From assembly GCF_000331535.1 (NCBI RefSeq), contig NZ_AMZN01000084.1:1-64000 (forward strand): a stretch of 64,000 bases of DNA, written 5' to 3'. Both the position numbers and the translations under genes were made by a program. This document shows positions 31,244 to 37,633 of the stretch, in pieces (the first letter of the stretch is position 1; every line of letters begins with the position of its first letter). The DNA is from Fulvivirga imtechensis AK7. GTDB lineage: Bacteria > Bacteroidota > Bacteroidia > Cytophagales > Cyclobacteriaceae. The notes beneath the pieces were generated by a model, which saw only the letters and a list, made by a program, of their open reading frames with translations, did not search any database and was not told where the DNA came from.

Positions 31244-31945
31244 TCAGGAGTGTAGGCCACACTCGGTTTTGGCAGTACCAGACCATCTGCCATTGCGACC
31301 ACGTCCTTTTGATGTACAATTGTGGCATCCGATAGATGCGTACCCTTCACTTGTGAGCGGGTGAGCAGGCAGCTCATATATCAGTTGATACAGATCAACA
31401 TCGGATGACGACATATCAATAAGTGGATGAACTTTTATCTGGTTACCCTTTGGCTCAAGTATTTTTATATTTCTCCTGTTTTCATTCTGAAAAGCCATGA
31501 GTCCGGATATCCATACTTTATAGCCACTTTTAATTTCGCTAAGTGGAGCTACCTTGTTGATAAAGCAGCATAGATCCTGGTTGTATTTCCAGGTTTTGTT
31601 TTCGTGGGTGAAGCGATTTTTGTTTGGTTTTGCACTGATATCTACAACATTAAGGTTCAGTTGCCTGGTAAGCTGGTCGCGATACTCAAGTGTTTCTTTA
31701 AAATGGAAAGACGTGTTGATGAAGTGGATGGGATGCCCGGGCTTAACCTGAGACAGCATATGTAGCAACACTACCGATGAGCCTCCGAACGAGGAGGTGA
31801 TAAGGATCTCTTCCGGTTTGAAGTTTTGAAAGATATTTTCCAATCGCTCTTTGGGCGACAGTGACCCAAATTGCTCATTTGCCTCACTGATATCAAAATT
31901 TTGATCAGTCGTTATCTCCCGAAACCAATTCTCTTGTGTGCGCAT
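31244..31945 (-). CDS. cysH: Phosphoadenylyl/adenylyl-sulfate reductase
   Basis: 233 residues. PP-loop-type nucleotide site (ITSSFGGSSVVLLHM), then DLCCFINKVAPL and IGCHNCTSKGRGRNGRW, ending TKTECGLH-like (TAKTECGLHS). The Cys pairs match the [4Fe-4S]-binding APS-type reductase, and the Cys of ECGLH is the catalytic one. It reduces activated sulfate to sulfite, which the sulfite reductase in the same operon converts to sulfide. It is the last gene of the operon and overlaps the siroheme gene by 41 bp. Genes for sulfate activation are not in the window. Confidence 0.9.
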   Translation of the reverse strand: MRTQENWFREITTDQNFDISEANEQFGSLSPKERLENIFQNFKPEEILITSSFGGSSVVLLHMLSQVKPGHPIHFINTSFHFKETLEYRDQLTRQLNLNVVDISAKPNKNRFTHENKTWKYNQDLCCFINKVAPLSEIKSGYKVWISGLMAFQNENRRNIKILEPKGNQIKVHPLIDMSSSDVDLYQLIYELPAHPLTSEGYASIGCHNCTSKGRGRNGRWSGTAKTECGLHS

Positions 31946-32498
31946 TTAATATTTTTACTTTTTCTGAAAAAGAAACTTTTAACTGCCTCCGGATCTTATT
32001 GAGGTTTTCAACCAGCTCATTTGTTTCGTCTGGCAGTATGCTTTCCAGCAACTCTCTAAATCTTTTTGCAAAGGTGGGCGACTGGCCATTGGTGGAAATA
32101 CCAATTTTTACGTGCCCTTTCGTTACTGTAGACCCCAGGTAAAAATCACATAGGTCGGGGGTATCTGCCACATTGGTGAGAATACCCCTCTCACTCGCCT
32201 GGTTGTAAATGATCTCGTTAACAGCCCTGTCTGCTGTTGCTAAAATGACAATCCGTACTTCCGGTTTCAGGTCATCTGTTTGAAAAGGACGTTCAATTAA
32301 CCGTACGTTGGGTACACCGGCTGCTATCTCTCTTATGCCTGCTGATATCTGTGTCCCTACCAATGTTACCAGCGCCCCTGGATCATTTTTCAGCAGGGCA
32401 TTTAACTTTTCCAGCGCTACATTCCCACCACCCACAATAAGAGTGTTCAGCTTGCTGAGTTTGAGAAATACCGGAAATAATTTATTGGTGGTTTCCAT
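31905..32498 (-). CDS. Precorrin-2 dehydrogenase / siroheme synthase N-terminal type
   Basis: 197 residues. NAD-binding start (LIVGGGNVALEKLNAL), then the Met8p/CysG-N layout with TNVADTPDLCDFYLGS and FAKRFRELLE. It converts precorrin-2 to sirohydrochlorin and may insert iron, supplying sirohaem for sulfite reductase. The methyltransferase half of CysG is a separate gene here (cobA), overlapping by 17 bp. Confidence 0.88.
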   Translation of the reverse strand: METTNKLFPVFLKLSKLNTLIVGGGNVALEKLNALLKNDPGALVTLVGTQISAGIREIAAGVPNVRLIERPFQTDDLKPEVRIVILATADRAVNEIIYNQASERGILTNVADTPDLCDFYLGSTVTKGHVKIGISTNGQSPTFAKRFRELLESILPDETNELVENLNKIRRQLKVSFSEKVKILNAHTRELVSGDND

Positions 32499-33237
32499 TA
32501 CTTATGTTTATTGTTTGGTAAACATTCAGATATTCACCTACTGATTCACCCACAACAATAAGTGCGGGAGTTGGTATGTATTCTTTCTGGTCCAGAATGG
32601 TTTCTATGGTGCCATGTACTACCTTTCCTGTAGGCAGAGACCCCTGAGAGATAATTGCAACGGGAGTAGAGGCTTTATCTTGCAACAGATAAAGCTCCAC
32701 GATTTCCCGGAGTTTTCTTAATCCCATGAAAAATACGACCGTAGCTGATGACTGAGCGGCCAGTTTGGCATCATCGGATAATTTTCCGTTAAGGTCAGTG
32801 GCTGTTACCACCCAAAAGCTCTGGTTGATGCCTCTTGTTGTTAAAGGTATACCATAGTAGCCGGGCAGGTTAATGCTCGAGATACCGATAATTGCTTCTG
32901 TAGGGATACCAAAACTTTTTGCATAGTCAATTTCCTCTTTGCCACGTGCAAAAATGAAGGGGTCGCCACCTTTTAGCCTTACTACATGCTTGCCTTTCAG
33001 TGCATGCTCAACGATAAGCTGGTTGATCTCCTCTTGTATGGCGCTGTGTTGCCCGGCTCTTTTACCCACAAATATTTTGGTACAGGTGCTTACGGCATAT
33101 TTCAAAAGCTCTTTATTTACCAGGGCGTCATAAAGTATCACCTCTGCTGAGGCAATAGCATTTGCGCCTTTGATGGTGATCAGGTCAGGGTCACCGGGCC
33201 CTGCACCTACCAGTGTTAATTGTCCGATCTTGCTCAT
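32482..33237 (-). CDS. cobA: Uroporphyrinogen-III C-methyltransferase
   Basis: 251 residues, full length for SUMT. Motifs: VGAGPGDPDLITIKG at the start, VVRLKGGDPFIFARGKEE for SAM/substrate binding, then PLTTRGINQSFWVVTA and VVFFMGLRKL. It makes precorrin-2, the first committed step to sirohaem. Its ATG overlaps the sulfite reductase stop by 4 bp (ATGA). Confidence 0.93.
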   Translation of the reverse strand: MSKIGQLTLVGAGPGDPDLITIKGANAIASAEVILYDALVNKELLKYAVSTCTKIFVGKRAGQHSAIQEEINQLIVEHALKGKHVVRLKGGDPFIFARGKEEIDYAKSFGIPTEAIIGISSINLPGYYGIPLTTRGINQSFWVVTATDLNGKLSDDAKLAAQSSATVVFFMGLRKLREIVELYLLQDKASTPVAIISQGSLPTGKVVHGTIETILDQKEYIPTPALIVVGESVGEYLNVYQTINISNGNHQ

Positions 33238-35354
33238 GCTTTGTAATAATTTGAAATAACTTCTTTTTCGCTTTCCAGCGCCTGAACTGTCCGCAGCGCC
33301 AAAGCCTCCCGAAAGAATGCCCTGGCTTGCTCCAGGTAATCTGTAGCAAAAGCAGGCTCTGGAATGTTCTGATTGATCTGAAGGACTTTTGCTTCGAAAT
33401 CCTGGCCTAAGCCTCCGTCAAAGTGCTTAGCGAAATCTTTGATAATGCCGATATGAGTATTGCACTGTATATCGATACTTAGCAAAAGCGCTTTGGCAGT
33501 AATTACAAACGTGCTATAGCTGTGATAAATAGAGTCTGCATAATAGCCGTTTTCAAGTGCTTCACCTCCATAGTGCAGGCGTTCTTCGGCATCTTGTAAA
33601 ATGGTACCCACCATATCATAGCTTACCCCGGCACATTCTCCCGTACCTATTTCAGGCACAAAAGCTTCCGTTTCTCCCCAGTCCAGGTAGTCGTCACCAC
33701 CCAGGGCAGTAAGGTCTCCTAATGGTTTTAAAAGGTTGTAGAAGTACATTTTGCCCTGTCTCAGGTAGTAGTAGTTGAAATATTCTCCTTCTTCAGAATG
33801 CGCTTCGTAGTCTTTCAGCAAAATTCTTACGGCTTCAGGGATCTTTTTAGTTGGTAACTTGATCACCTTGTCAGCGATAAAGCCACGCCCATACTCATCT
33901 ACACCACCGCCAAGTACCACCTGCAGTGCAGGTATTACGGCTGATCCGTTTTTTATAGAGCTGCCATGAAAGCCAATGTTTGCGATCATATGCTGACCGC
34001 AAGAGTTCATACATCCGCTTATTTTAATGTGTATATCGGAATCTGTGATCAGTGAGTGAAATTCGCTGCTGATCATTCGCTCCAGCTCTTCCGCGATGCC
34101 CGTACTATTGGTTACAGCTAAATTACAGGTGTCTGTGCCCGGACAGGCAGTAATGTCTACAATACTTTCAGAACCAGGCTCTGCAAGGCCCAGGTGGTCA
34201 AGTACATAGAATAGGTAGGGCAGGTTTTCCTTACGGGCAAACTTAAGCAGTAATCCCTGACTTATCGTGATCCGAATATCATCGGCAATGTATCCCTTGG
34301 TAAGGTTAACCAACTCCCGGGCAGTTCCGGCATGGATGTTTCCAAGGGGGAGTCTTATTTTTATGGCGTAGAAACCTTTTTGCTTTTGCTCCAGCACATT
34401 TGTTTGAAGCCATTCCTTGTATTTTTCTTTATTTTTTATGTCCGGTTCAGGCGCTTTTTGTTCTTTTGGTATTTCAACAGGGACCGAACCGGTGTCGATG
34501 TTTAAGGAATGATGCGCATTGGCTTTTTGTTCAATACTTATCAGCTCCATGAATTTTTCCAAACCCAGGCCCCTTTTAGCCTCTACCAGGAATTTCATAC
34601 GTGCTTTATGCCTTTTTTCCCGTTCTCCGTAGCGATCAAATACTCTCAACCCGGTTTCAATAAAAGGAATGATCTTATCCTCGGAAAGGAACTCATAGGC
34701 GGTCTCAGCAATGAACGTCTGAGCGCCCAGCCCCCCGCCAACCACTACTTTAAATCCCCTTTGGCCATCTTTTATTCTTGGAATAAAGCCAAAGTCGTGG
34801 ATGTATGTGAATGCAGCATCTTTATCACTCGAAGAAAAGGCGATCTTGATCTTACGGCCCATTTCCTGATTGATAGGGTTGCGCAGGAAATATTCAAATA
34901 CCGCATGAGCATAAGGGGCTACGTCAAAAGGCTCGTCAGGATCTATACCAGCCAATGGAGAGGCTGTAATATTCCTTACAGTGTTACCGCATGCCTCTTT
35001 TGTAGTGATCCCTTTTTCTTCCAGTTTAGCCCACATCTCAGGAGTATCCTCCAGGTGTACAAAGTGAAGCTGAATATTTTGCCGGGTAGTAGTATGCAGG
35101 TTGCCGTTGGTGTACTCTTCGGAAACGTCCGCGATCCTTGTTAACTGCTCACCGGTAACCTTGCCATAGGGTAGCTTAATTCGGAACATTTGTACTCCCA
35201 ATTGGCGCTGGCCGTATACTCCTCTTGCCAGGCGAAAAGCTTTGAAACGCTCCTCTTGTATCTCTCCTTTTTTGAATTGTGATATCTTTTTTTGCAGTTC
35301 CAGGATGTCCTTTTGGGCTGCTTTTGAGATGTTTTCGTTTAATACTAAGGTCAT
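33234..35354 (-). CDS. Sirohaem-dependent sulfite (nitrite) reductase
   Basis: 706 residues from ATG at 35354; a TTG at 35384 would overlap the terminator region and is unlikely. Two ferredoxin-like/NIR_SIR repeats, with the cluster-sirohaem cysteines in ACPGTDTC and GCMNSCGQH. The last ~150 residues are an extra helical domain (HEPN-like), usual in the Bacteroidota version. The setting with cysH and metZ indicates sulfite rather than nitrite reduction. Expression is probably governed by the Cys leader and terminator just upstream. Confidence 0.92.
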   Translation of the reverse strand: MTLVLNENISKAAQKDILELQKKISQFKKGEIQEERFKAFRLARGVYGQRQLGVQMFRIKLPYGKVTGEQLTRIADVSEEYTNGNLHTTTRQNIQLHFVHLEDTPEMWAKLEEKGITTKEACGNTVRNITASPLAGIDPDEPFDVAPYAHAVFEYFLRNPINQEMGRKIKIAFSSSDKDAAFTYIHDFGFIPRIKDGQRGFKVVVGGGLGAQTFIAETAYEFLSEDKIIPFIETGLRVFDRYGEREKRHKARMKFLVEAKRGLGLEKFMELISIEQKANAHHSLNIDTGSVPVEIPKEQKAPEPDIKNKEKYKEWLQTNVLEQKQKGFYAIKIRLPLGNIHAGTARELVNLTKGYIADDIRITISQGLLLKFARKENLPYLFYVLDHLGLAEPGSESIVDITACPGTDTCNLAVTNSTGIAEELERMISSEFHSLITDSDIHIKISGCMNSCGQHMIANIGFHGSSIKNGSAVIPALQVVLGGGVDEYGRGFIADKVIKLPTKKIPEAVRILLKDYEAHSEEGEYFNYYYLRQGKMYFYNLLKPLGDLTALGGDDYLDWGETEAFVPEIGTGECAGVSYDMVGTILQDAEERLHYGGEALENGYYADSIYHSYSTFVITAKALLLSIDIQCNTHIGIIKDFAKHFDGGLGQDFEAKVLQINQNIPEPAFATDYLEQARAFFREALALRTVQALESEKEVISNYYKA

Positions 35355-35386
35355 ATCACTGTGCGTTTTAATTTTTTTGTTCAAAT

Positions 35387-35426
35387 AAAAAGGCCTCTTC
35401 GTTGGTATCCGGGAAGAGGCCTTTTT
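35387..35426 (-). terminator. Intrinsic terminator (attenuator) before sulfite reductase
   Basis: AAAAAGGCCTCTTC pairs perfectly with GAAGAGGCCTTTTT around a 12-base loop. On the minus strand the stem is followed by TTTTTATTTG. It lies 33 bp upstream of the sulfite reductase ATG and 25 bp downstream of the Cys leader ORF, inside what is otherwise a contiguous operon, which is the arrangement expected of an attenuator. Confidence 0.88.
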
Positions 35427-35450
35427 AAAGTTTATTCCTTCACGGATACA

Positions 35451-35516
35451 TTAATCCCTTATGTGTTGACAACAAAAGCAACACATCCAGATGGCGATAT
35501 CGTTGTTAATCCTCAT
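35451..35516 (-). CDS. Cysteine leader peptide of the sulfite reductase attenuator
   Basis: 21 codons. The ATG (35516-35514) overlaps the metZ TGA in an ATGA arrangement, so translation is coupled to metZ. The peptide contains WMCCFCCQH: Cys codons TGT TGC, then TGT TGT, 4 of 5 consecutive codons. The intrinsic terminator at 35387-35426 follows. I infer ribosome-mediated attenuation: with plentiful Cys-tRNA the ribosome finishes and the terminator forms, with low Cys it stalls and sulfite reductase is transcribed. No competing antiterminator was proven by eye. Confidence 0.75.
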   Translation of the reverse strand: MRINNDIAIWMCCFCCQHIRD

Positions 35517-36691
35517 TTTGATGCGTTCAGTGCATTTTCAATATCTTCAAGTATATCATTGACATTTTCCAGTCCTACGGAAATACGTACCAACCCCGGT
35601 AAAATCCCTACTTCAGCCCTTTCCTCATCCGTGAGTTTAGAGTGTGTAGTAGAAGCCGGGTGTGTGGCTATAGTTCTTGAGTCGCCCAGGTTTGCCGTCA
35701 GTGACAACATTTGCAGACTATCCAAAAACCTTCTTCCCCGGTCGATCCCCCCTTTCACGATGAAAGTTACGAGTCCCCCTCCAAGCTTCATCTGCTTCTT
35801 TGCCAGCTCATACTGAGGGTGTGATTTTAAAAATGGGTACTTTACAAGCTCCAATTCTTCATGTCCTTCCAGGTATTCAGCAATTTTCAGAGCGCTTTCG
35901 CAATGTCTGTCCATCCGTACGGCCAGTGTTTCAAGGCTTTTAGATAGCAGCCAGCCATTAAATGGTGAAAGAGAAGGTCCGGTGTGTCTGGCAAAAAAAC
36001 GAATATCTTTGATCAACTCTTTGTCGCCCAGTATAGCACCTCCGATCGTACGGCCCTGCCCGTCTATAAATTTGGTTGCCGAATGGGTAACAATATGCGC
36101 TCCGTATATAGCGGGCTGTTGTAGATAAGGAGTGGCGAAGCAATTATCAATATTAAGAATTAGACCATGGTTGTTTGCCAATTGCCCCAACCACTCCAGG
36201 TCTATAATGTCCAATGCAGGATTTGAAGGGGTCTCTGCAAAGATCATTTTCGTATTTGGCAGTATCTTGCTTTCCCATTCTTCAGGGTTGTTGATATCTG
36301 CATAGGAATGCTGAATGCCCCATTTCGGGAATATCTGCGTAAACAACTGGTGCGTGGACCCAAATACCGATCTTGATGCCAGAATATGATCTCCACTTTG
36401 AAGTAAGGCAACCATGCTGGCAAACATCGCAGCCATGCCTGAAGCAGTGGCTATGCCATCATCCGTACCTTCTAATGCGCATAGTTTATCTATGAACTCC
36501 GTATTGTTCGGGTTAGAAAAACGCGTGTATATATTCCCCTCTTCCTCATCTGCAAATAAAGCACGTGCCTGCTCTGCATCATCAAAGGTAAAGCTGGAGG
36601 TCATATATAATGGCGCAGAATGCTCCCGAAACGGAGAACGTTCCGTTTGATTGCGTATAGCCTTGGTTTCAAAGTGTTTGTATTTCGACAT
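35513..36691 (-). CDS. metZ: O-acyl-homoserine sulfhydrylase (MetZ-type)
   Basis: 392 residues of the Cys/Met metabolism PLP-enzyme family. It has the substrate loop RFSNPNNTEF, ATASGMAAMFAS, the PLP-contact ILNIDNCFATPY and the PLP lysine in SATKFIDGQGR. It joins sulfide to O-acetyl- or O-succinylhomoserine to give homocysteine, using the sulfide made by the downstream genes. It lies 18 bp after the ferredoxin gene. Cystathionine-gamma-synthase activity is an alternative, but the sulfide-producing context favours MetZ. Confidence 0.88.
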   Translation of the reverse strand: MSKYKHFETKAIRNQTERSPFREHSAPLYMTSSFTFDDAEQARALFADEEEGNIYTRFSNPNNTEFIDKLCALEGTDDGIATASGMAAMFASMVALLQSGDHILASRSVFGSTHQLFTQIFPKWGIQHSYADINNPEEWESKILPNTKMIFAETPSNPALDIIDLEWLGQLANNHGLILNIDNCFATPYLQQPAIYGAHIVTHSATKFIDGQGRTIGGAILGDKELIKDIRFFARHTGPSLSPFNGWLLSKSLETLAVRMDRHCESALKIAEYLEGHEELELVKYPFLKSHPQYELAKKQMKLGGGLVTFIVKGGIDRGRRFLDSLQMLSLTANLGDSRTIATHPASTTHSKLTDEERAEVGILPGLVRISVGLENVNDILEDIENALNASK

Positions 36692-36709: not shown

Positions 36710-37057
36710 TTATGAGGCATGTAGCCACTCTTTTTTGCTGTAAAGTTCTTCTTCTGACTCCTCATAATCCGGATCAGGCACACAGCAGTCTACAGGACAT
36801 ACAGCGGCACATTGCGGCTCCTCATGAAATCCTGTACATTCTGTACACTTGCCAGCTACGATGTAGAAAAACTCATCAGAATATGGTTCCTGTTTCTCAT
36901 CTCCGGGTATGGTGCTGCCATCTTCAAGTTCTACTTCGGAAAGATCAGTGCCATCGCTCCATGACCACTCTTCTCCACCCTCGTAGATAGCTGTATTGGG
37001 GCATTCTGGCTCGCAAGCCCCGCAGTTAATGCATTCTTCAGTTATTAATAGTGCCAT
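36710..37057 (-). CDS. 2[4Fe-4S] ferredoxin
   Basis: 115 residues from ATG at 37057, where [20 protein letters not shown] begins the fold (the in-frame upstream start at 37108 is not supported). The two cluster motifs are [11 protein letters not shown]...P and [18 protein letters not shown]. The second motif has the insert typical of the long-spaced ferredoxins, and a ~35-residue acidic insert separates them. First protein gene after the SAM riboswitch and Cys leader. It is the obvious electron donor for the sulfite and APS reductases in the same locus. Confidence 0.9.
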
Positions 37058-37120
37058 TTGATAATTCGTTTTTGTTTTTAAAAATGTGTTCGGCTGTGGT
37101 GGAGACATATTAAATCTCCC

Positions 37121-37178: not shown

Positions 37179-37304
37179 TTAGGCCTGCCAGGTACAACAA
37201 CAGCAACAACAAATGTGCTTACCTGCGGCTTTGACGATAAAATTAGAAAATAAACCCTGTTGTGGGTCTTTGGATCGGAATTGTAAGAAGTTAGATGCTT
37301 TCAT
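37179..37304 (-). CDS. Leader ORF with six consecutive Cys codons
   Basis: 41 codons, ATG at 37304 only 12 bp after the end of the SAM-I aptamer. Near its C-terminus, just before TWQA and the TAA stop, lie six successive Cys codons (37194-37211: TGT TGT TGC TGT TGT TGT). A run like this in a short ORF upstream of Cys/Met genes is the hallmark of a leader peptide used to sense Cys-tRNA. It is not a recognisable enzyme or metallothionein. Structures downstream are less clear than at the second leader. Confidence 0.7.
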
Positions 37305-37315
37305 TATTCAGTCAA

Positions 37316-37436
37316 TTTATATTCTCCCATCCGCCAACCTGGCGAACATTTGGGATCAGGATTTGGCACCTATATCACTTAGACTGATGGTTGCCAGAGG
37401 GTCTCAGAGCCTGTCTCTCACCTCATTCTTTATAAA
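37316..37436 (-). ncRNA. SAM-I (S-box) riboswitch
   Basis: On the minus strand the core reads GAGAGACAGGCTCTGAGACC, CTCTGGCAACC, later GGTGCCAAATCCTG, then a CGCCA-GGT-TGGCG hairpin, closed by a P1 helix TTTATA (37431-37436) with TATAAA (37316-37321). These are the conserved S-box blocks in the right order. It should bind S-adenosylmethionine and turn the ferredoxin-metZ-sulfite reductase locus down when methionine is plentiful. Confidence 0.88.
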
Positions 37437-37633
37437 TCAACTACACTTACGGGTAATTGATAATACAAATGTAAAGCCTTAAAAATCAATTCTGCAAATT
37501 TTTGTTGAGGTTTATTTTCTGCAAACGTTTTATTGCTGCAATTTGATACAATAGAATGTTGCCCCAACCTTAGGTGTTATTATTCCTTTTTGGCTAATAT
37601 TGAATAAAGCAATTTATGAATGAAAATCTAACT

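Follow-up and report, generated by a model that had tools for sequence, protein, structure and literature searches.

In the operon described here, a short cysteine-rich ORF and a complete intrinsic terminator lie between metZ and the gene of a sulfite-reductase-type protein, and this arrangement raises the question of whether translation of the short ORF decides if the reductase is transcribed. The window, that is, the whole stretch of 64,000 nucleotides from Fulvivirga imtechensis AK7 that was analysed, had received a first-pass annotation in which the ORF and the hairpin were read as a ribosome-mediated attenuator inside an operon. We found that the head of the same operon bears a SAM riboswitch and another Cys-rich ORF. 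From comparative sequence analysis we consider it likely that two Cys-sensing leader peptides are arranged in series, the first of them joined to the predicted SAM riboswitch. Below, the ORF before the reductase is called leader 1 and the one at the operon head leader 2. The features, in the order of transcription, are:

37314..37438, minus strand: SAM-I riboswitch aptamer (S-box; Rfam RF00162, 64.4 bits against a gathering threshold of 44.4)
37179..37304, minus strand: leader 2 ORF, 41 codons, with six consecutive Cys codons at 37211-37194 (ORF translation)
36710..37108, minus strand: YfhL-family 4Fe-4S dicluster ferredoxin (NCBIfam NF033683, 96.7 bits against a cut-off of 86)
35513..36691, minus strand: metZ, an O-succinylhomoserine sulfhydrylase-type Cys/Met PLP enzyme (NF006003 and PF01053)
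35451..35516, minus strand: leader 1 ORF MRINNDIAIWMCCFCCQHIRD, 21 codons, with CCFCC at 35483-35469
35437..35449, minus strand: antiterminator strand GUAUCCGUGAAGG (duplex energy test with the terminator arm and loop)
35387..35426, minus strand: intrinsic terminator with a 14-bp stem, a 12-nt loop containing CGGAUAC, and a T-run
33234..35354, minus strand: NirA/sulfite-reductase-type protein, 706 aa (Pfam and NCBIfam)
32482-33237, minus strand: uroporphyrinogen-III C-methyltransferase
31905-32498, minus strand: siroheme synthase N-domain protein
31244-31945, minus strand: cysH-type PAPS reductase

Several of these assignments carry qualifications. The ferredoxin gene has its homology-supported start at ATG 37057, and the metZ product scored 513.4 bits against NF006003, slightly below the cut-off of 522. 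The reductase matched Pfam NIR_SIR and NIR_SIR_ferr, in two stretches of each, and its best NCBIfam model was NirA, at 234.6 bits and below the cut-off of 523; sulfite is favoured as its substrate because the genes downstream are cysH and those of the methyltransferase and siroheme-synthase proteins listed above. Its start at ATG 35354 is backed by homologues, and a longer form starts with TTG at 35384. C-terminal residues 586-647 of this protein exceed the gathering score of Pfam HEPN (24.3 versus 22 bits), which is unusual for a sulfite or nitrite reductase. We also observed that the reductase match falls into two pieces in two genomes of the same genus (G005:C1:2857647-2859774 and G007:C218:9840-12086, one of them with an internal TGA), where the gene may be broken or the assembly faulty.

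Translation of the window confirmed the annotated 21-codon ORF with its CCFCC motif at 35516..35451 of the minus strand, its ATG overlapping the TGA of metZ (ATGA; metZ 36691..35513). The perfect 14-bp stem with T-run was likewise found as described. Its 5' arm (35426-35413), 12-nt loop (35412-35401) and 3' arm (35400-35387) form 14 perfect pairs, or 15 counting one flanking T-A pair, and the 3' arm ends in TTTTT followed by ATTTG, with the reductase ATG (35354) 32 nt further on. A fold of the 201-nt segment gave z = -3.2, and none of 200 shuffles was equally stable. A generic terminator scan does not report this hairpin, as the 12-nt loop exceeds the loop length that the scan allows. Rfam placed no T-box or other amino-acid leader family above its gathering threshold at leader 1; the best match, Thr_leader, reached 24.2 bits versus a threshold of 55, and a known Rfam leader family was rejected for this element.

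The first-pass picture held for leader 1. It was incomplete on the operon head, where the SAM riboswitch and the second Cys leader had been overlooked. In the window, the 3' strand of the aptamer's P1 stem ends in ...UAUAAAUU, 9 nt ahead of the leader 2 ATG. Since this closing stem sits where the ribosome-binding region of leader 2 is expected, SAM probably gates the translation of a cysteine sensor. We searched for the same arrangement at other reductase loci. Of 98 genomes, counting the window's own, 61 gave a reductase match, and 60 oriented loci (the window among them; G088, a weak partial match, was left out) entered the comparison. A SAM riboswitch was present in 23 of the 60 within the stretches examined, some of which end at contig ends, and in 22 of these 23 a short ATG-started ORF with a Cys cluster lies directly behind the aptamer. 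The exception, G019, has an ORF without Cys at this position, and in G050 leader 2 has a weaker cluster, CCWSNRCC.

The pairing of aptamer and leader varied with the gene that follows. We sorted 134 SAM sites, drawn from 74 genomes, according to the long ORF next behind them (sites among the best ~150 matches, plus those of the window's own genome and of the reductase operons) and scored a leader where an ORF with three Cys in nine residues started within 28 nt of the aptamer. Among these sites, Cys leaders were found before 17/17 ferredoxin genes and 27/39 genes for metY-type O-acetylhomoserine sulfhydrylases, versus 0/44 metH and 0/2 hom genes; the remaining classes were reductase (1/1), other genes (9/29) and no gene (1/2). 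In this set of best matches, the difference between non-metH sites (55/90) and metH sites (0/44) has a Fisher P-value of 1e-13, uncorrected for relatedness. The window's own genome has four SAM sites: one lies before metH and has no leader, one heads this operon (leader 2), one stands before metY with a leader that ends in CCCCCCCC, and one comes before an alginate-export-family gene. At the last site (L152, C6:129678-129790), a short ORF ending in ESCCS is followed by the outer-membrane gene (PF13372, 301 bits), and the locus possibly serves the import of a sulfur compound.

In a second draw of 60 genomes across the class, which yielded 53 further SAM sites, Cys leaders were seen at 0/30 metH, 4/6 metY and 2/17 other sites. 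Four of these six leaders came from G111, of the window's family, and G071, of its order; outside the order, leaders stood at 2/46 sites, both of them metY (2 of the 4 metY sites there). We also scanned named genomes with a gapped pattern of aptamer core, ATG and five Cys codons, which returned at least 117 stretches. Among the matches listed, the 20 stretches with an S-box-like core were all in frame (20/20), versus 7/97 of those without the core; being mostly chance matches (97/117 of those listed lack the core), the stretches at large were rejected as evidence. The Rfam SAM threshold was passed by 19 of the 20 core-bearing stretches listed (all except L235) and by 0/13 of the other stretches scanned, of which four were in frame and nine from Bacteroidota. 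All 20 belong to Bacteroidota, a statement about the matches listed and no measure of prevalence or of absence elsewhere. Within that same set the pair occurs in genera that include Fulvivirga, Pontibacter, Mucilaginibacter, Lewinella and Haliscomenobacter, and further in Saprospiraceae, Chitinophagales, Crocinitomicaceae, Flavobacteriales, Microscillaceae and others. The genes that follow the pair in the named genomes include metY(-metX), cysH-cysD, an FNR-like gene with metX, metX-like, OsmC-like and reductase genes, the names beyond motif labels being sequence readings. Taken together, the existence and the gene specificity of the SAM riboswitch-Cys leader composite are well supported, and its logic is offered as a hypothesis.

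If the SAM riboswitch acted on the downstream gene separately, the Cys leader would be an independent element that merely adjoins it. Sites of the metX type and some of the metY/metZ type, which have a UAUAAAUU-type P1 without any Cys leader, speak for such independence. The geometry of the leader-bearing sites argues against it: the leader ATG is offset from the aptamer by 7-11 nt in 17/17 ferredoxin sites and by 8-10 nt in 20/27 metY sites, and these narrow offsets leave little room for an expression platform between aptamer and leader. The P1 stem of the leader class also ends in UAUAAAUU-type sequence, whereas 42/44 of the leader-less metH sites carry a P1 end of the GATAAG/GATGAG type. 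We thus judge separate action to be rather unlikely and favour a riboswitch that acts on the leader itself. A further form of the arrangement was seen in family f13 (L332, L334 and L342 of G088; L381 and L390 of G071), in which the ends of the SAM aptamers are of CATATAAAAA type, GTG is the start codon of four of the five Cys leaders and one next gene is cysH-like; this mostly GTG-started arrangement is a lineage-specific form.

How leader 2 would act on the genes behind it was approached through the spacer that follows. An intrinsic terminator was found after leader 2 in only 3 of 53 loci, and two of these (G021 and G016) belong to a further leader before the reductase, so that this effector was rejected. 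Alternatively, the Cys codon run of leader 2 might base-pair with the start region of whichever gene follows, such that a stalled ribosome would free the start codon. Comparable pairing has been proposed for the Actinobacterial leuA gene (the LEU element, as excerpted from PMC1262725) and, in kind, for the Cys leaders of mycobacteria. Single loci do pair well (G009, P = 0.003; G012, P = 0.010; G041, P = 0.020; G001, P = 0.043), and the ferredoxin group jointly departs from chance (Fisher 1.5e-4, relatedness ignored). Pairing at P<0.05 was nevertheless confined to 4/15 ferredoxin, 3/27 metY and 1/8 other loci, with P = 0.66 in the window, and we rejected the Cys run as a general anti-start element; sequestration of this kind is an improbable account of leader 2.

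Generally strong structure in the spacer was also rejected: the mean fold z-score after leader 2 was -1.44, versus -1.20 for metH spacers, and z fell below -1.6 in 17/49 versus 16/41. The fold is strong in the window (z = -3.4) and in its subclade (-3.4, -3.0, -2.3 and -2.9). Leader 2 spacers are rich in C and poor in G (24% C and 14% G, versus 18% and 16% for metH), a composition that would suit Rho and is no test of it. Rho-dependent termination is our favoured guess for the effector of leader 2.

To return to leader 1, we examined whether Cys-dense ORFs recur upstream of the reductase, taking as a leader any ORF with at least four Cys in nine residues within 350 nt of the gene. Such ORFs were found in 26 of the 60 loci, compared to 19 of 3000 dinucleotide shuffles (0.6%) and 0/60 antisense stretches, and so are not a product of chance. 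With five Cys in nine residues the counts were 19/60 loci, 0/3000 shuffles and 0/60 antisense, and with three they were 32/60, 130/3000 and 6/60. One of the 26, in G050, is probably an off-frame reading of a Cys-rich ferredoxin gene. Intrinsic terminators, judged by eye, follow the Cys leader in 27 loci, and both Cys codons and stem are thus kept in many homologous loci. By the three-in-nine threshold, 28 of the 60 reductase loci still have no Cys leader. Leader 1 is absent from G003, G005, G006 and G007, four of the 12 reductase-bearing genomes of the window's genus group; all four retain the SAM riboswitch and leader 2, which indicates that leader 1 is dispensable. Two side observations came from this survey. 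In G063 (L054), two units of Cys leader and terminator, recognised by eye, stand in tandem before the reductase, between ~400 and 70 nt from it, and a Flavo-1 RNA motif (RF01705, 53.7 bits) lies at L066 2657-2732, near a reductase locus of another family.

The leader 1 peptides read MRQLINNVIFCMCCLCCKHVKE in near relatives of the window and are of ACWFWCC and CCYVCCCCCMCC types elsewhere. The Cys-rich nascent chains of the leaders might sense a metal or the redox state instead of the supply of cysteinyl-tRNA. Metal binding or a reaction with thiols is conceivable for runs such as CCCCCC, and there is an established case: CruR, a copper-sensing uORF in Bordetella that encodes a DUF2946 protein with CXXC and a C-terminal RAPP motif, resembles our leaders as a Cys-containing uORF ahead of the genes it controls and acts in a Rho-dependent manner (excerpts of PMC9426467). 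The RAPP arrest motif, as defined in those excerpts, occurs in neither window leader (21 and 41 residues), and a CruR-type copper uORF was rejected for both. The peptides (CCFCC, CCCCCC, ACWFWCC, CCYVCCCCCMCC) share hardly more than their Cys runs, a pattern more in keeping with the counting of codons than with a site for binding. Most downstream genes that could be named belong to sulfide production or Met/Cys synthesis, the exceptions being unnamed, permease-like and OsmC-like genes. We consider metal or redox sensing quite improbable and retain the reading of a ribosome that counts cysteine codons.

This reading predicts an RNA segment behind the Cys codons that can compete with the terminator. 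We calculated the energy of a duplex formed by the spacer behind the Cys codons with the terminator's loop and 5' arm, compared it to 500 dinucleotide shuffles of the spacer, and did so for 26 of the 27 leader-terminator loci picked by eye; G089 was dropped, as the ORF picked there holds no Cys cluster, and the set was confined to loci with a clear terminator, which left out Cys-leader loci such as G055, G073 and G038. Complementarity of the post-Cys segment to the terminator's arm or loop exceeded that of the shuffles (P<0.05) at 19 of the 26 loci, and pairing was not significant at the other 7. In the window, GUAUCCGUGAAG lies directly 3' of the leader 1 stop, the antiterminator strand begins one base past the stop, and the duplex has an energy of -16.2 kcal/mol, compared to a shuffle mean of -10.3 (P = 0.026). 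The pairing letters vary by clade (GUAUCCG/CGGAUAC, CGGGAAAGGC/GCCUUUCCCG, UCAGCAGGGAG/CUUCCUGCUGA) and change together with the terminator, so that an alternative pairing, missed in the first-pass annotation, not only exists but co-varies between species. As a control, 12 other terminators of the same loci, found by a stricter rule and tested with the 55 nt upstream, showed no such pairing (0/12). The Fisher combination over loci, 2e-17 with relatedness ignored, is not to be taken at face value, since the loci are related and combined P-values are overstated.

A folding model of the half-made transcript is only weakly supportive. The terminator arm was paired with upstream RNA at a mean of 0.66 when the ribosome stood on the first Cys codon, versus 0.22 when it stood at the stop; the drop exceeded 0.2 in 22/26 loci, the reverse was seen in none, and the window gave 0.62 versus 0.29. 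This difference is partly trivial, because less free RNA is left when the ribosome stands at the stop. The three nearest relatives gave little or no difference (0.48/0.36 in G014, 0.50/0.50 in G001 and 0.46/0.49 in G008). For a ribosome on the last Cys codon, shuffled spacers reached 0.50 compared to 0.63 observed, and the observed value exceeded the shuffled mean in 20/26 loci. The model differed from shuffled spacers at P<0.05 in 5/26 loci, none of which is G000, G014, G001 or G008, of the window's subclade.

These results bear on another explanation, a plain mid-operon terminator that lowers the level of the reductase beside an incidental short ORF: a stem that is strong and complete without any leader and four related genomes that manage without leader 1 would suit it, but the excess of Cys-dense ORFs over shuffles and a complementarity to the arm or loop that the other terminators lack make it very unlikely. 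The attenuator layout originally proposed is supported by the Cys ORF, the terminator and the antiterminator together, and leader 1 is best read, on this comparative evidence, as a ribosome-mediated attenuator.

Under this reading, the overlap with the metZ stop would couple translation of leader 1 to that of metZ. When cysteinyl-tRNA is scarce, the ribosome is predicted to stall in CCFCC, leaving GUAUCCGUGAAG free to pair with the terminator's loop and 5' arm (CUUCCCGGAUAC); with the antiterminator formed, transcription would continue into the reductase and cysH. When cysteine is ample, a ribosome at the leader 1 stop would cover GUAUCCGUGAAG, the terminator would form and the ferredoxin-metZ part alone would be made. 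At the operon head, bound SAM would block translation of leader 2, in a form of "direct translation attenuation" whose target is the leader, and leader 2 would in turn report cysteine through its Cys run. The operon is expected to be off where leader 2 is either untranslated or fully translated and on where the ribosome stalls at the Cys codons; the net result would be an AND gate that permits expression only if both SAM and cysteine are low. Given two Cys-rich ORFs, a terminator and a SAM riboswitch, the cell probably reads the supplies of cysteine and methionine jointly before it makes sulfide. For Bacteroidota at large, the proposal that one composite switch reads two metabolites, with a SAM riboswitch gating translation of a Cys-counting leader before sulfide-using genes and the riboswitch standing without leader before metH, seems to us about evenly balanced between true and false.

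Each part of this arrangement has relatives among known systems. The trp, his and thr leaders combine control codons with alternative antiterminator and terminator structures and a terminator before the structural gene. Leader 1 shares control codons, alternative structures and a terminator ahead of the structural gene with these attenuators, and differs from them in its use of cysteine, its Bacteroidota host and its position inside an operon, behind metZ. The nearest precedent for the Cys leaders is the polycysteine short ORFs of mycobacteria, which are described as translational attenuation (excerpts of PMC9031893 and PMC13236596, citing Canestrari et al. 2020) and which had been predicted in PMC1262725, whose excerpts report no conserved terminator for them. 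As far as these excerpts go, the two share a Cys-run short ORF before cysteine-pathway genes, with ribosome speed at Cys codons as the presumed sensor, whereas leader 1 here is intra-operonic and has an intrinsic terminator and antiterminator, and leader 2 stands behind a SAM riboswitch.

SAM-I riboswitches with the ribosome-binding site in the 3' side of P1 have been described by Barrick and Breaker (PMC2258182). The head of our operon has the same RF00162 aptamer, and a start codon immediately follows the 3' strand of P1, as in the direct translation attenuation of that source; unlike the cases in its excerpts, the first ORF here is a poly-Cys leader peptide and no enzyme. The SAM-II riboswitch of Sinorhizobium metA, with AUG1/AUG2 and a terminator beyond, similarly places a SAM riboswitch near an upstream start codon and a terminator farther on, but it is of another class, and its abstract describes no amino-acid-sensing codon run (PMC9373788). 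Within Bacteroidota, excerpts on Flavobacterium psychrophilum point to amino-acid operons that may be preceded by leader-peptide attenuators, without naming cysteine (PMC9723704), and others note leader-peptide attenuation in Bacteroides thetaiotaomicron (PMC7366714); neither set of excerpts names a Cys leader or a coupling to a riboswitch. Among the papers listed by searches of the open-licence literature, we recognised no description of a Cys leader in Bacteroidota and none of a SAM riboswitch preceding a Cys leader, and the first-pass statement that no Bacteroidota case was known stands as far as those searches go.

If the proposed reading is true, this locus would represent a Cys-codon transcription attenuator in Bacteroidota with a full terminator and antiterminator, and a riboswitch that acts in the first place on another sensor, the leader peptide for a second metabolite. 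A single RNA element, recognisable from sequence, would then integrate two sulfur amino acids, and its recognition would open a route to annotating the Cys-rich ORFs of 20-60 codons in Bacteroidota genomes.
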